A stretch of 64,000 nucleotides of DNA, from contig NZ_CP131601.1 of assembly GCF_030685535.1 (NCBI RefSeq), positions 2,728,001 through 2,792,000 on the forward strand, in the 5' to 3' direction. The translations under genes and the position numbers were made by a program. This DNA comes from Photobacterium leiognathi. GTDB taxonomy: Bacteria; Pseudomonadota; Gammaproteobacteria; Enterobacterales; Vibrionaceae. The notes below the pieces were generated by a model. It saw only the letters and a program-made list of their open reading frames with translations. It had not been told where the DNA came from and did no database searches. This document shows positions 51,736 through 57,806 of the stretch, piece by piece (positions within the stretch are counted from its first letter, which is position 1; every line of letters begins with the position of its first letter).

Positions 51736-51751
51736 CCGTTAAAAACGTTAA
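51736..51751 (-). promoter_or_regulatory. Candidate ChiS-type operator upstream of chiS
   Basis: Read on the minus strand this is TTAACGTTTTTAACGG, identical over 16 bases to the site at 55940-55955 in front of the chitin operon. It lies about 40 bp upstream of a likely chiS -35. The binding protein is inferred, not shown. Confidence 0.5.
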
Positions 51752-51787
51752 TTCTGTGTTTTTACCCACGCTTCCATACCGTAATAC

Positions 51788-51815
51788 TTGATCCCTTTAA
51801 ATAACCCCGTATAAA
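51788..51815 (+). promoter_or_regulatory. Probable chiS promoter
   Basis: TTGATC (51788-51793) and TATAAA (51810-51815) with a 16-bp spacer; the transcript would start near 51822, leaving a leader of about 140 bases. No second candidate is clearly better. Confidence 0.45.
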
Positions 51816-51964
51816 CAGTATCATATTAAGAAATATGGACTTAGTGATGGCTAACGAACGGAAAAATTGTCAAAAACGACATAAATATCGTTGCCTTACA
51901 ATTTAACGTTAATCCCTAATCCGCAATTCAGATCGTATTACAATCATATTATTCAGGCACCGGA

Positions 51965-54900
51965 ATGCAGAATACTACGCGATTTAAACGTCTCCAACAT
52001 ACGTTAATGTTGGCTTTTATTGTGCTCAGCATCACCCCTTTGGTTTTATCTGCCTTATATTTTCTAAACTCACATACCAAAGATCTCGCCGAGCAAAGTA
52101 TCAATCACTTAGCCTCTTTACGCGATAATAAGCAAAAGCAGCTCTACAGCTTTTTTGCCGCTAAAGAATCAGAGGTGAAGAGTTTCGCTCGCTCAGAATT
52201 ATCCAATAACAGTGGCGGTCGTTTTTATGGCCTCGTGGGTGCTTATCACCAATTAGGTGACATCGAGCCACAGCTTGCAAAACAAGGACGTGCTCACTAT
52301 TTCTCACAAACCCTGACCAAGAAAAACGACAACAACAACCAAACCACCTATGTAGGGCATGAACGCTATCGTTTGATGTATAAGCGCTATAACGCAGTTT
52401 ATAAAGAATATTTAAAACGTTCAGACTTCAAAGACATCATGTTGGTTGATTTGTCAGGTAACGTGGTTTATTCCGTCCATAATCACAGCTTATTTGGCAT
52501 TAATTTGCTTAAAAATCAGCAAGCATCGCCAGCACTAAAGCAGACTTTTGAAACCATTAAGCAAAAAACCAAACTAAGCCAGAAACAGCCCGATCAAGTG
52601 CCTGTTACTTTTACTGATTTCAGTCAAACAGCCAATAACAGTGATACAACGGCATGGTTTGCTGCCCCTATTATTCAGCAAGGCTATTTGCACAGTTACG
52701 TGTTTATGGAGCTGAGTAACAAAGCAATTTCTGAGCTCATTCAAGATCTGGGTAACAATGCTAATTACGTCCAAACACTACTGATTGACCAAGATCACAA
52801 ACTGCGTTTTTCAGCAGAATCAGATTTACCCCAAACCTTACAAAGTGAAAGTATTAGCCAAGCACTAGCAGGGAAATCTGGCGTGGGTAGCTTTAAAAAC
52901 TACAATCACATCCCTGTACTCAGCGCCTTTTCTCCACTCGATATTCTGGGTAACAAGTGGGCGTTAGTGGTTGAGTTACCAGAAAAAGAAGCCTTTGCAC
53001 GCATTACTGAGTTAGAGAAAATCTTTGGCTTTGGCATGATCACTGCCATTCTCTTGGTGATTTTCGTCTCTCACCTACTTTCCAACTCCATTACTGCGCC
53101 ATTGTTACGTTTAACTTGGGCTGCTGAAAAAGCCTCTGGTGGCGATCTTGATCAGATCATTGAAGGTACTGAACGCAGCGATGAAATTGGTCGCCTTGCG
53201 ATAAGCTTTTCACGTATGCAGCGCTCTATTCGTGAAAAAATTGGTCTAATAAAAACCCAAAATGATGAGCTAGAACAGAGCCTTAAGATCATCCAGCAGA
53301 AAAATGATGAGCTACAAACCGCAGATAAACTAAAAGATGAATTTCTTGCGACAACTTCCCATGAACTGCGTACACCGCTTCATGGCATGGTCGGTATTGC
53401 TGAATCCTTACTGGCAGGTGCTAATGGCCCACTACAAGATCCACAGCGTCGTCAGCTTGAAATGCTGATCAACAGTGGTCAACGCTTAACAAACTTGGTT
53501 GATGATCTGTTGGACTATCACAAGATGCGCTATGGCGATCTTGATATTCATCGCCATGCTATTGATTTATCAGCAGCTGTACGTTTGGTTTTAGAACTTT
53601 CAAGCCATCTATTAGGTAATAAACCAGTACGTATTATTAACCAAATACCAGCGGATTTACCGCTGGTTGATGCCGATGAACAGCGTCTAGAGCAAGTGCT
53701 ATACAACCTTGTTGGTAATGCGATTAAGTACACATCTGAAGGGAAAATTATTATCTCTGCCACTGTGCTTGAGCAGCAATTACGAGTACAAGTCGTCGAT
53801 ACAGGCCAAGGTATTCCTAGTGAGCAGCTTGAGCATATCTTTGAGCCATTGATCCAAGCGAATTCTGGCTCGGCTAATTATCGTCAAGGGGCTGGGCTTG
53901 GGCTATCAATCAGCCGCCAACTGATTGAATTAATGGGCGGTCGTTTATACGTCAGTAGTCAGCCAATGGTCGGTACAACCTTTAGCTTTACCTTGAATTT
54001 AGCGACAGAGGCACAAATTAACGCGATTTCTCACGAGTCCACCAGCCAACATTTCCAAGCACCATCATTAGATTCAAGCAGTTGTGAAAGTAGTAACTTA
54101 CCAGAAAACCCTAATGGTGACTTGATCCTAGTCGTTGATGACGAGCCTGTTAACCTACAGATCCTCAACAATTTTTTACGTTTAGCTGGCTATCGTGTGA
54201 AAACAGCAGAAAATGGTCCACAAGCACTAGCAATGGTAGAAGAACAACGTCCAGATCTGATTTTGCTCGACATTATGATGCCAGAAATGAGTGGATATGA
54301 AGTTTGTACAATCCTAAGAAAACAATACTCTATTTTTGAATTGCCAATCATGATGCTGTCAGCTTTAGGACAGATCCAAGATCGCATTAAAGGCTTTGAG
54401 TGTGGCGCCAATGACTATTTAACCAAACCCTTTAATAAGGAAGAGCTAATTGCTCGTATTCAAGCTTACCTACAAGCAAGTAAGACTGAACATGAAAAGC
54501 AAAAGAACCAAAGCCTACAGCAAGAGATCCATCGCCGAGAGCAGGTCGAAATCAGCTTAATTGAAGCGCAAAGCCGTTTACTGGGGTTACTAGACTCAAC
54601 CACTGAAGCGATCATTTGTGTACAAAATGAAGGTCGGATTCGTTATGTAAACAGCGCTGCTGGCAAGCTATTTAAACGTCCACCAGAACAGCTTGAGCGC
54701 CATACAATAAGTGATATTTTAGCTGCTGAATTACCTGACACCATCGCTGATAGCCACCATTACAACGGGAAATTGAGCTTCCTGATCGGTGAGCAAGTGC
54801 AAACACTATCAACCGATGTCATTAATTTGCCGCAAGAATCTGGGCTGAAACAGATGTTTGTATTCGACAGTCAAGGGCCATCGGCAGATCACCGTATTGG

Positions 54901-55351
54901 CTTATTAGAAAATGCAGTCGATATGTTGTCAGAATTTGCCTTTAACGGTGATAAGAACAACCTACAGCAGCTTCGTGAGCTGGGCGGTGAATTTACTCGA
55001 CTTGCAGATAAACTCGATAGCAATAACCAAAATAAAGGCCAACAAATTCGAGAGTTGCTGGTTGAATCGATGAAAAACACCCTAATGCTATGGGAAAGCG
55101 AATCGAACAAAACCAAGTTTGAATTAGCAGAAGAAAGTGGTTTATGGCGTGTTTATCTAGACCGTAGTACGTTACAAACGCGTACCTTAGATAAATATCT
55201 TCATCTTGAAACATTGCCTAAAACACCACGTTGGCGCACTGTGATTAATACCATGGATTATGTACTTGAACGCTGTAATCAACCAACAGCGGCACGCCAA
55301 GAGCTCGTCACCATGCGTGATAAATTGCACCATACCATTAGTACCAGCTAA
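51965..55351 (+). CDS. chiS: Chitin-responsive hybrid sensor kinase ChiS
   Basis: Inner-membrane hybrid histidine kinase of 1128 residues that governs chitin use in Vibrionaceae; the periplasmic chitin-oligosaccharide binding protein keeps it off until ligand appears. In V. cholerae ChiS itself binds the chb promoter. Visible parts: membrane helices at about 13-33 and 355-377, a periplasmic domain between, HAMP (about 378-430), coiled coil, HisKA with His466 (TTSHELRTPLHG), ATPase motifs (NLVGNAIKY, DTGQGIP, GAGLGLSISR), a receiver with Asp769 (LLDIMMPEMSGYE), a PAS-like stretch and a C-terminal region (about 975-1128) that corresponds to the DNA-binding part. Its neighbours downstream are the chitin operon genes. 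Followed by a terminator. Confidence 0.92.
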   Translation: MQNTTRFKRLQHTLMLAFIVLSITPLVLSALYFLNSHTKDLAEQSINHLASLRDNKQKQLYSFFAAKESEVKSFARSELSNNSGGRFYGLVGAYHQLGDIEPQLAKQGRAHYFSQTLTKKNDNNNQTTYVGHERYRLMYKRYNAVYKEYLKRSDFKDIMLVDLSGNVVYSVHNHSLFGINLLKNQQASPALKQTFETIKQKTKLSQKQPDQVPVTFTDFSQTANNSDTTAWFAAPIIQQGYLHSYVFMELSNKAISELIQDLGNNANYVQTLLIDQDHKLRFSAESDLPQTLQSESISQALAGKSGVGSFKNYNHIPVLSAFSPLDILGNKWALVVELPEKEAFARITELEKIFGFGMITAILLVIFVSHLLSNSITAPLLRLTWAAEKASGGDLDQIIEGTERSDEIGRLAISFSRMQRSIREKIGLIKTQNDELEQSLKIIQQKNDELQTADKLKDEFLATTSHELRTPLHGMVGIAESLLAGANGPLQDPQRRQLEMLINSGQRLTNLVDDLLDYHKMRYGDLDIHRHAIDLSAAVRLVLELSSHLLGNKPVRIINQIPADLPLVDADEQRLEQVLYNLVGNAIKYTSEGKIIISATVLEQQLRVQVVDTGQGIPSEQLEHIFEPLIQANSGSANYRQGAGLGLSISRQLIELMGGRLYVSSQPMVGTTFSFTLNLATEAQINAISHESTSQHFQAPSLDSSSCESSNLPENPNGDLILVVDDEPVNLQILNNFLRLAGYRVKTAENGPQALAMVEEQRPDLILLDIMMPEMSGYEVCTILRKQYSIFELPIMMLSALGQIQDRIKGFECGANDYLTKPFNKEELIARIQAYLQASKTEHEKQKNQSLQQEIHRREQVEISLIEAQSRLLGLLDSTTEAIICVQNEGRIRYVNSAAGKLFKRPPEQLERHTISDILAAELPDTIADSHHYNGKLSFLIGEQVQTLSTDVINLPQESGLKQMFVFDSQGPSADHRIGLLENAVDMLSEFAFNGDKNNLQQLRELGGEFTRLADKLDSNNQNKGQQIRELLVESMKNTLMLWESESNKTKFELAEESGLWRVYLDRSTLQTRTLDKYLHLETLPKTPRWRTVINTMDYVLERCNQPTAARQELVTMRDKLHHTISTS

Positions 55352-55853: not shown

Positions 55854-55875
55854 AAATGTGATATAACACACATTT
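55854..55875 (+). promoter_or_regulatory. CRP site of the chitin operon
   Basis: AAATGTGAT and CACATTT flank a centre of ATAACA; the 22-bp site matches the CRP consensus at 18 positions. The centre is about 135 bp before the predicted transcript start. Catabolite control of this operon is known in V. cholerae. Confidence 0.75.
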
Positions 55876-55909: not shown

Positions 55910-55924
55910 TTAACGTTTTTGACG
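55910..55924 (+). promoter_or_regulatory. Candidate ChiS operator, distal copy
   Basis: TTAACGTTTTTGACG; a near-identical copy starts exactly 30 bp downstream, that is about three helical turns, so both face the same side of the DNA. Confidence 0.6.
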
Positions 55925-55939
55925 TGGTTTTTATAAGTT

Positions 55940-55955
55940 TTAACGTTTTTAACGG
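55940..55955 (+). promoter_or_regulatory. Candidate ChiS operator, proximal copy
   Basis: TTAACGTTTTTAACGG, ending 9 bp before the -35 element. It is identical to the inverted site upstream of chiS. The position directly next to -35 is typical of activators that touch RNA polymerase. Confidence 0.6.
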
Positions 55956-55964
55956 GAAGCCAGA

Positions 55965-55993
55965 TTGACGATTTAGCGATTAGAGAGAATATT
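55965..55993 (+). promoter_or_regulatory. Predicted chitin operon promoter
   Basis: TTGACG (55965-55970), a 17-bp spacer and AATATT (55988-55993). The -10 is poor, which suits an activator-dependent promoter. Start is expected near 56000, giving a leader of about 130 bases. Confidence 0.5.
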
Positions 55994-56129: not shown

Positions 56130-57806
56130 ATGCTTGCCAATATTAACAAAACTAAGTTAGCACTTGCCGTTGTTGCAGCAGCAACCGCTTTTACAGCACC
56201 AGTAGCTTCAGCAGCAGAAAAAAGTGAACTAACAGTAGTACCAAACTTTTACCCTACAATGGTACGTAACTTTAACCCGTACCTATCTACTAACCTACAC
56301 ACCACAACAGACTTCGTTTACGAGCCATTGGTTGTATTTAACCAAATGAAAGGTAACGAGCCAGTAATGCGTTTGGCGAAAGACTACTACATGTCTGACG
56401 ACCTAATGCAAGTAACGTTCGAAATCCGTGACGGCGTTAAGTGGTCTGACGGTGAAGCGTTCTCTGCTGATGACGTTGTTTACTCTTTCGATCTAGTGAA
56501 GAAGAACCCTGAGCTAGACCAACGTGGTATCAACAAGTGGGTTAAATCAGTGAAGAAAGACGGTAACAAAGTTATCTTCTCTCTAACTGAAGCAAACTCT
56601 AACGTTCCATTCGAAATTTCTTTCGTACCAGTAGTGCCTAAGCACATCTGGAGCAAAGTTGAAAACCCAACAACTTTCACTAACGAAAACCCAGTAGGTA
56701 CTGGTCCATTTACTGAGATCGATACTTTTACTCCTCAACTATACGTTCAGTGTCGTAACCCTAACTACTGGGATAACGCTAACCTAGAAGTTGACTGTCT
56801 ACGTGTACCTCAGATCGCGAACAACGATCAGCTACTAACTAAGATCATCAACTCTGAGCTAGATTGGACTTCATCGTTCATTCCTGACATCGACAGCACA
56901 TACGCTGCGGCGAATCCTAATCACAAATACTGGTACCCAGCAGCTGGTACTCAGTCATTCATGTTGAACTTCAAGTCGCCTAAAGAAGGTAACAAAGAAG
57001 CAATCAACAACGTTGATTTCCGTCGTGCGTTCTCTATGGCTATCGACCGTCAAACAATCATCGACATCGCGTTCTACGGTGCGGGTACACCAAATGACTA
57101 CGCGTCTGGCCTAGGCGATGGTTTCAAAACTTGGTCTGATGAAGCTGTACACGGTAAATACAAAGCATTCAACACATACAATGTGAAAGGTGCTAAAGAG
57201 CTTCTAGCGAAAGCTGGCTTCAAAGATACTGACGGTGATGGTTTCGTAGAAACACCAACTGGTAAGAAGATCGAGCTTGAAGTTCAATCTCCAAACGGTT
57301 GGACTGACTTCAACAACACTGTACAGCTAGGTGTTGAGCAGCTTCAAGAAGTGGGTATCAATGCGAAAGCTCGTACTCCTGACTTCGCTGTTTACAACGA
57401 AGCAATGCTAAACGGTACTTATGACGTAGCTTACACAAACTACTTCAACGGTGCAGATCCATACCTATACTGGGATAGCGCATACAACTCACGCTACCAG
57501 TCTGGTGACGGCATGCCTCGTTTCGCAATGCACTTCTTCAAGAATGCAGAGCTAGACAAGCTACTAGACAGCTTCTACAAGACAGCTGACAAAGGCGAGC
57601 AAATCAAGATTGCTCACGGTATCCAGAAGATCATCGCTGAAAACCAAGTTACAGTTCCAGTAATGTCTGGTGCGAACAACTTCCAATACAACGAAACTCG
57701 CTTCACTGGTTGGTGGAACGAGAAGAACCCTCAAGGCCGTCCAATGGTATGGGCAGGTGTTCCTGAGCGTCTACTTCAAGTACTGGATCTAAAACCAAAA
57801 GCATAA
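56130..57806 (+). CDS. cbp: Periplasmic chitin-oligosaccharide binding protein
   Basis: SBP_bac_5-family solute binding protein of 558 residues; it delivers chitin oligosaccharides to the ABC transporter and restrains ChiS when empty (known from V. cholerae CBP). A signal peptide with LALAVVAAATAFTAPVASA is cut after about residue 28. Family blocks are MVRNFNPYLSTNLHTTTDFVYEPL, VTFEIRDGVKWSDGEAFSADDVVYSF and FRRAFSMAIDRQTI. Codon use is strongly that of a highly expressed gene. First gene of the operon; CRP site, paired motif copies and promoter are upstream, and a strong hairpin follows it. Confidence 0.92.
   Translation: MLANINKTKLALAVVAAATAFTAPVASAAEKSELTVVPNFYPTMVRNFNPYLSTNLHTTTDFVYEPLVVFNQMKGNEPVMRLAKDYYMSDDLMQVTFEIRDGVKWSDGEAFSADDVVYSFDLVKKNPELDQRGINKWVKSVKKDGNKVIFSLTEANSNVPFEISFVPVVPKHIWSKVENPTTFTNENPVGTGPFTEIDTFTPQLYVQCRNPNYWDNANLEVDCLRVPQIANNDQLLTKIINSELDWTSSFIPDIDSTYAAANPNHKYWYPAAGTQSFMLNFKSPKEGNKEAINNVDFRRAFSMAIDRQTIIDIAFYGAGTPNDYASGLGDGFKTWSDEAVHGKYKAFNTYNVKGAKELLAKAGFKDTDGDGFVETPTGKKIELEVQSPNGWTDFNNTVQLGVEQLQEVGINAKARTPDFAVYNEAMLNGTYDVAYTNYFNGADPYLYWDSAYNSRYQSGDGMPRFAMHFFKNAELDKLLDSFYKTADKGEQIKIAHGIQKIIAENQVTVPVMSGANNFQYNETRFTGWWNEKNPQGRPMVWAGVPERLLQVLDLKPKA

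Follow-up and report, generated by a model that had tools for sequence, protein, structure and literature searches.

We analysed a stretch of 64,000 nt from Photobacterium leiognathi (NZ_CP131601.1, 2,728,001-2,792,000; genome of 4.75 Mb), hereafter called the window, for a short word that occurs twice in front of the chb operon and once, inverted, in front of chiS, which encodes a hybrid sensor kinase with a DNA-binding domain. Our reading, to which we give a probability of roughly 0.75, is that the chb pair consists of ChiS boxes and that, through inverted boxes at the chiS promoter, ChiS also controls its own gene, the control being more likely negative. The chb copies are most likely docking sites for ChiS, and the copies around the chiS promoter suggest self-control. 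From sequence comparison we infer the identity of the chb boxes with published ChiS sites, the binding of ChiS at the chiS boxes and the sign of the autoregulation. The chb pair is a known element, found here in another genus, and the chiS copy is the newer part.

The box pair at the chb promoter

The original prediction described two direct repeats 30 bp apart that end 9 bp before a TTGACG -35 element, and an identical 16-base copy lying inverted upstream of chiS. The coordinates bear this out. The repeats occupy 55910-55924 and 55940-55954, both on the plus strand and 30 bp apart from start to start. The 16-mer TTAACGTTTTTAACGG finishes at 55955, 9 bp ahead of the TTGACG at 55965, and the identical 16-mer is found inverted at 51736-51751 upstream of chiS. 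Sites were scored with a position weight matrix trained on 80 boxes from 40 relatives, with the window and its closest sister excluded. Promoter elements (-35, -10 and start sites) of chb and chiS were assigned by eye, which placed the chb start site at about 56000. The features of the chb side and the two genes concerned are as follows.

55910..55924, plus strand: candidate ChiS box 1 of the chb promoter, TTAACGTTTTTGACG, TTAACG-TTT-TTGACG; matrix rank 2 in the window (26.8); centre at about -83 from the predicted start site
55940..55954, plus strand: candidate ChiS box 2 of the chb promoter, TTAACGTTTTTAACG, TTAACG-TTT-TTAACG; matrix rank 1 in the window (30.9); centre at about -53 from the predicted start site
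55965..55970, plus strand: predicted -35 of chb, TTGACG, by eye
55988..55993, plus strand: predicted weak -10 of chb, AATATT, 17 bp after the -35, by eye
55857..55872, plus strand: putative CRP-like inverted repeat TGTGATATAACACACA upstream of the chb boxes
56130..57806, plus strand: first operon gene, periplasmic binding protein (SBP_bac_5), homologue of the binding protein CBP; directly 3' of chiS in 140/150 loci
51965..55351, plus strand: chiS, hybrid sensor kinase with C-terminal ChiS-family DNA-binding domain; the C-terminus matches PDB 7kpo

When the matrix was run over all positions of the window, the three reported sites took ranks 1-3 (30.9, 26.8 and 25.7), and the next score was 11.9. 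With up to two mismatches the word was found in the window only at these 3 sites; shuffled sequences gave a mean of 0.49, and 0 of 100 shuffles reached 3. Genome-wide searches were controlled with the reversed pattern. The exact 15-mer TTAACGTTTTTRACG occurs 3 times in the genome, each time at the chiS/chb locus, against about 0.07 exact matches expected (the 69 control matches spread over all allowed mismatch combinations). Up to two mismatches gave 64 matches for the 15-mer and 69 for the control. Since these near-matches are no commoner than the control, only the exact copies stand above chance. The proposed restriction to two promoters is thus true for the exact word in this genome, and the genome scan revealed no scattered copies away from the locus among the exact matches (3/3 at the locus).

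The family was then surveyed. ChiS was detected in 264 of 296 Vibrionaceae genomes, and 150 ChiS loci were examined, 70 in a first set (30 + 40) and 80 in a second, with at least 4 genomes common to both sets. The genera referred to below are that of the window (label g1), taken to be Photobacterium, Vibrio (g12) and one further genus (g3). The start of the CBP gene was located downstream of chiS in 140 loci, and the remaining 10 were left out of the chb analysis. The 140 chb promoters represent 134 distinct sequences. Each was scanned for pairs of TTRACG-N3-TTRACG boxes, taking the best-scoring pair over distances of 16-60. A spacing of 30 bp was best in 140/140 promoters, in two cases tied with 25 bp; after base shuffling, 30 bp was among the best distances in 10/140. 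Over both boxes together, 32 promoters had no mismatch, 79 had one, 28 had two and 1 had three. In 69/69 loci of the first set the TTG of the -35 was unchanged and stood at one constant distance from the boxes. The two chb sites are helically phased, being 30 bp apart in the window and best at this distance in all 140 relatives. V. mimicus and V. metoecus (L098, L099), close relatives of V. cholerae, have the same 30-bp pair. Conservation in relatives had been anticipated, and the word is indeed kept at both the chb and the chiS promoters. What had to be revised is the recognised unit, taken at first to be a fixed 15-mer; it appears instead to be a pair of TTRACG hexamers repeated at 9 bp, the 3 bases between them being free to vary. 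One locus (L027, genome G127) has about 1.8 kb between the end of chiS and the chb box pair, compared with the usual 0.6 kb or so, and something may have been inserted there.

We compared this arrangement with V. cholerae Pchb, where ChiS binds two helically phased sites and a 60-bp probe spans both, according to the available passages of the published work (PMC8092284, PMC11856585, PMC13316777). Compared by place, number and phasing, the two systems agree: two phased sites lie upstream of chb, chiS is adjacent, and the ChiS DNA-binding domain is conserved. In passages of PMC5519180, replacement of -162 to -50 of V. cholerae Pchb abolishes activation, and the boxes of the window, centred at -83 and -53, fall inside this interval on the predicted start site.

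The ChiS of the window has 1128 aa with HAMP, HisKA, HATPase, receiver and PAS matches. Its C-terminus matches the V. cholerae ChiS DNA-binding domain (PDB 7kpo) with an E value of 9.1e-37, and R1068, R1074, K1078, R1090 and R1092 (V. cholerae numbering, fitted in this analysis) are identical in both. Single mutants at these positions of V. cholerae ChiS are reported, in the published passages available, to lose DNA binding. The genome is thus predicted to encode an intact ChiS DNA-binding domain. The CBP homologue is followed by permease and ATPase genes, named from their reading frames. In one of the surveyed genomes, the chiS match (G139:C1:1331239-1334628) contains one internal TGA.

Inverted boxes at the chiS promoter

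The chiS gene is preceded by rsmC, and the gap between the two genes carries the following features.

51737..51751, minus strand: inverted candidate ChiS box upstream of the chiS promoter; matrix rank 3 in the window (25.7); centre at about -78 from the predicted start site
51868..51882, minus strand: weak second inverted box at about +53, beyond the predicted start site of chiS; matrix rank 5 in the window (11.6)
51755..51770, plus strand: inverted repeat TGTGT-N6-CCACG adjoining the chiS box, kept in relatives and presumably CRP-like
51788..51793, plus strand: predicted -35 of chiS, TTGATC, by eye
51810..51815, plus strand: predicted -10 of chiS, TATAAA, by eye

We searched 148 rsmC-chiS gaps (144 distinct sequences). 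The exact box, with 12/12 half-site letters, was present in 53 of them and on the minus strand in 53/53, while 30 shuffles gave a mean of 0.07 loci with a maximum of 1 and the reversed pattern gave 0. Allowing one mismatch raised the number to 96/148 gaps (112 minus-strand and 14 plus-strand matches; shuffle mean 1.37). The boxes in the chiS promoter region are thus beyond chance. A box with at most one mismatch was found in 43/43 gaps of Photobacterium and in 5/5 of genus g3, and an exact box in 25/43 and 5/5, respectively. In these 48 loci, picked by the best match 160-300 bp upstream, the spacer columns hold 0.24-0.71 bits compared with 1.5-2.0 for most hexamer columns, and A and G are about equally frequent at hexamer position 3, which is also the case at chb. 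Because the 48 loci were chosen by best match, the gap-wide shuffle test of 148 loci is the unbiased one.

The placement of the box differs between groups. In Photobacterium and g3 it lies upstream of the predicted -35, with the CRP-like inverted repeat beside it. The Vibrio alignment places it over the predicted -10, judged by eye among the matches listed, and its spacer there is mostly AAA. A second box downstream reached a minus-strand matrix score above 10 in 26 of 48 relatives, compared with 0/48 on the plus strand and a shuffle mean of 0.15; 1 of the 26 (L066) is an upstream box that was miscounted, with a misplaced -10. This downstream box is stronger in several relatives than in the window. 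The upstream and downstream boxes lie about 110-160 bp apart, and the number of helical turns between them is not constant. The prediction that ChiS acts with self-control is supported: its chb part agrees with the published V. cholerae work and the intact DNA-binding domain, and the self-control part is a well-supported prediction in Photobacterium and g3 and a weaker one in Vibrio.

Two further observations concern these promoters. We considered and rejected a promoter reading leftward from the inverted chiS box, as no TTGACG-type -35 was seen by eye at a chb-like distance on the minus strand. CRP-like repeats (55857-55872 and 51755-51770) precede both promoters and are kept in part of the relatives; for TGTGATATAACACACA the label goes by what we take to be the CRP consensus.

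With two candidate operators spaced about 110-160 bp around a single promoter, the chiS region resembles autoregulated bacterial regulators that have operators on both sides, such as gal and lac. The chiS boxes differ from these in that they share one orientation, their helical spacing varies, and their regulator is anchored in the membrane. DNA looping at the chiS boxes is no more than a guess. A single ChiS site outside chb, not a pair, also exists at the V. cholerae tfoR promoter, where, in passages of PMC11856585, ChiS binding recruits the promoter to the membrane irrespective of phasing. There, ChiS helps TfoS to activate, whereas the inverted chiS boxes flank or overlap the core promoter. 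A limited search of the open literature, mainly titles and the beginnings of abstracts, found no report of chiS autoregulation, and none that links the letters of the box with ChiS.

Proposed mechanism and competing readings

In the mechanism that we propose, each box would be a direct repeat of the TTRACG hexamer with a 9-bp period, and two such boxes 30 bp apart would lie on the same helix face just upstream of a weak sigma-70-type chb promoter. Chito-oligosaccharides would release the membrane-anchored ChiS from its binding protein CBP. Released ChiS would then occupy the 30-bp pair and activate the chb operon as in V. cholerae. It would also occupy the inverted boxes at 51737-51751 and, more weakly, 51868-51882, which flank the chiS promoter, and so regulate its own gene. 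If ChiS binds there, the feedback is somewhat more probably negative, because the boxes sit past the start site or overlap the -10. The complete scheme, in which ChiS represses its own gene through two inverted boxes flanking the promoter and activates chb through the 30-bp pair, orientation and spacing set the sign, and the clade of the window has lost SlmA input, is put forward tentatively, with less than even confidence.

Several observations weigh against our reading. Across the genome the looser form TTRACGNNNTTRACG exceeds its control neither exactly (11 matches, 11 for the control) nor with one mismatch (185, against 253 for the control). Outside Photobacterium and g3, a box with at most one mismatch was present in just 48/100 chiS gaps and an exact one in 23/100, and 22 of 48 relatives fell below the cut-off for the downstream box. 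Matches to GH18 (7) and GH20 (4) in the window's own genome gave no matrix score above 7.4 among the best 3 per locus, compared with at least 25.7 at the three reported sites. The available V. cholerae ChIP-seq passages name Pchb, PtfoR, VC2217 and VC2487 and name no chiS peak. The chb boxes were compared letter by letter with sister species, and the V. cholerae sites were likened by description. Finally, because related genomes share ancestry, the locus counts are not independent events.

The alternative closest to our reading is that ChiS binds its own promoter and activates it, with the box at about -78 serving as an upstream activator site by the CRP-like element. Lying ahead of the predicted -35, with a conserved CRP-like element as its neighbour, this box would suit such positive feedback, and more sensor could benefit the chitin response. 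Against this, the second inverted box lies beyond the predicted start site in about half of the 48 relatives and the Vibrio box overlaps the predicted -10, both repressor-like places. Moreover, the activating chb boxes are on the plus strand and paired at 30 bp, whereas the chiS boxes have the opposite orientation and no 30-bp pair. We therefore regard positive feedback as possible but doubtful. It is still less probable that only the chb pair belongs to ChiS and that the chiS-side sequence, bound by another factor or part of the core promoter, resembles it by accident. In Vibrio the mostly AAA spacer and the position over the predicted -10 could mean that the sequence is kept for the promoter itself, and the lack of a named chiS peak in the ChIP-seq passages would fit as well. 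In Photobacterium and g3, however, the box stands apart from the predicted -35 and -10 and is found with at most one mismatch in 48/48 gaps; its three spacer bases drift, whereas its hexamers, with either A or G at position 3, follow the pattern seen at chb; exact matches always have one orientation.

That an unnamed regulator other than ChiS uses the shared motif at both promoters is very improbable. Several regulators, among them SlmA and CRP, also act at chb, but the sites resembling those of SlmA and CRP lie further upstream as sequences of their own, and the place, number and phasing of the boxes agree with the ChiS sites described for V. cholerae Pchb in the available passages. Chance repeats in A+T-rich promoters, to which the background level of near-matches in the genome might point, can practically be dismissed: they are contradicted by the shuffle tests on the window and the chiS gaps and by 140/140 promoters sharing the 30-bp spacing, and conservation has already refuted them.

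The SlmA-like site and other candidate targets

In 95 loci a palindrome close to GTTAGTAANCACTAAC lies at position -96 relative to box 1, and 113 of the 134 loci outside the window's clade hold it at some point of the stretch with at least 9/11 letters. We named it SlmA-like by its position and by what we take to be the E. coli SlmA consensus. In relatives its end lies near -170 when counted from our predicted chb start site, and the SlmA site of V. cholerae Pchb is placed 167 bp from the start site in passages of PMC5519180. At V. cholerae Pchb the SlmA site is a coactivator feature separate from the ChiS boxes. This is where the clade of the window differs from V. cholerae: the palindrome before the boxes is present in 0/6 of its loci (L021-L026; 55810-55840 in the window), and the site appears, from the sequence, to have been lost there. 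The genome of the window does have an SlmA-family gene (family NF007015, 297 bits, cut-off 120).

A wider direct ChiS regulon in this genome is unsupported, with TTRACGNNNTTRACG as frequent as its control. Of its 11 exact matches, 3 are the sites of the window, 7 lie inside open reading frames and 1 precedes a PadR/AphA-like gene. The last (L091 1501-1515, exact TTRACG-N3-TTRACG, score 20.8) sits just 5' of the gene start. The gene was matched in 52 genomes; the box was present in 7 of the 30 upstream regions of relatives that were read, those of the closest ones, and not in the other 23. Since only the closest relatives have it, we take it as local or fortuitous.

Across 52 genomes of the genus, 92 exact TTRACGNTTTTRACG matches were found, 73 of them at the chiS/chb locus with at least one there per genome. 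The 19 matches off the locus are fewer than the 37 reversed-control matches in the same genomes and thus background overall. The only set among them that recurs intergenically at one place (4/19) lies between a ligase-like and a chitoporin-like gene. The sole PDB matches of this porin are chitoporins (E about 4e-32); the other gene is called ligase-like from its sequence. Strong boxes (16.4-28.3) were present at 5 of 11 porin loci, all in one sister clade (L218-L222), and the other 6 were without (best 9.3). The five loci have a strong inverted box with a weaker opposite box 26 bp away, about 530 bp upstream of the porin start. The genome of the window has no match to this porin at 1e-60. Separately, four genomes of the genus (L203, L205, L208, L213) carry TTAACGCTTTTAACG within a FadL-like coding sequence, which is probably coding conservation.

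These results propose a sequence rule for ChiS boxes, TTRACG-N3-TTRACG with 30-bp pairs for activation, across a family of marine chitin degraders. The published ChiS work that we found concerns V. cholerae, and the rule would extend to the whole family. It predicts a hitherto undescribed feedback on the chitin sensor and, in one clade, a direct link to a chitoporin-like gene. Natural chb promoters without an SlmA-like site would offer a means to probe the puzzling need for SlmA in V. cholerae.
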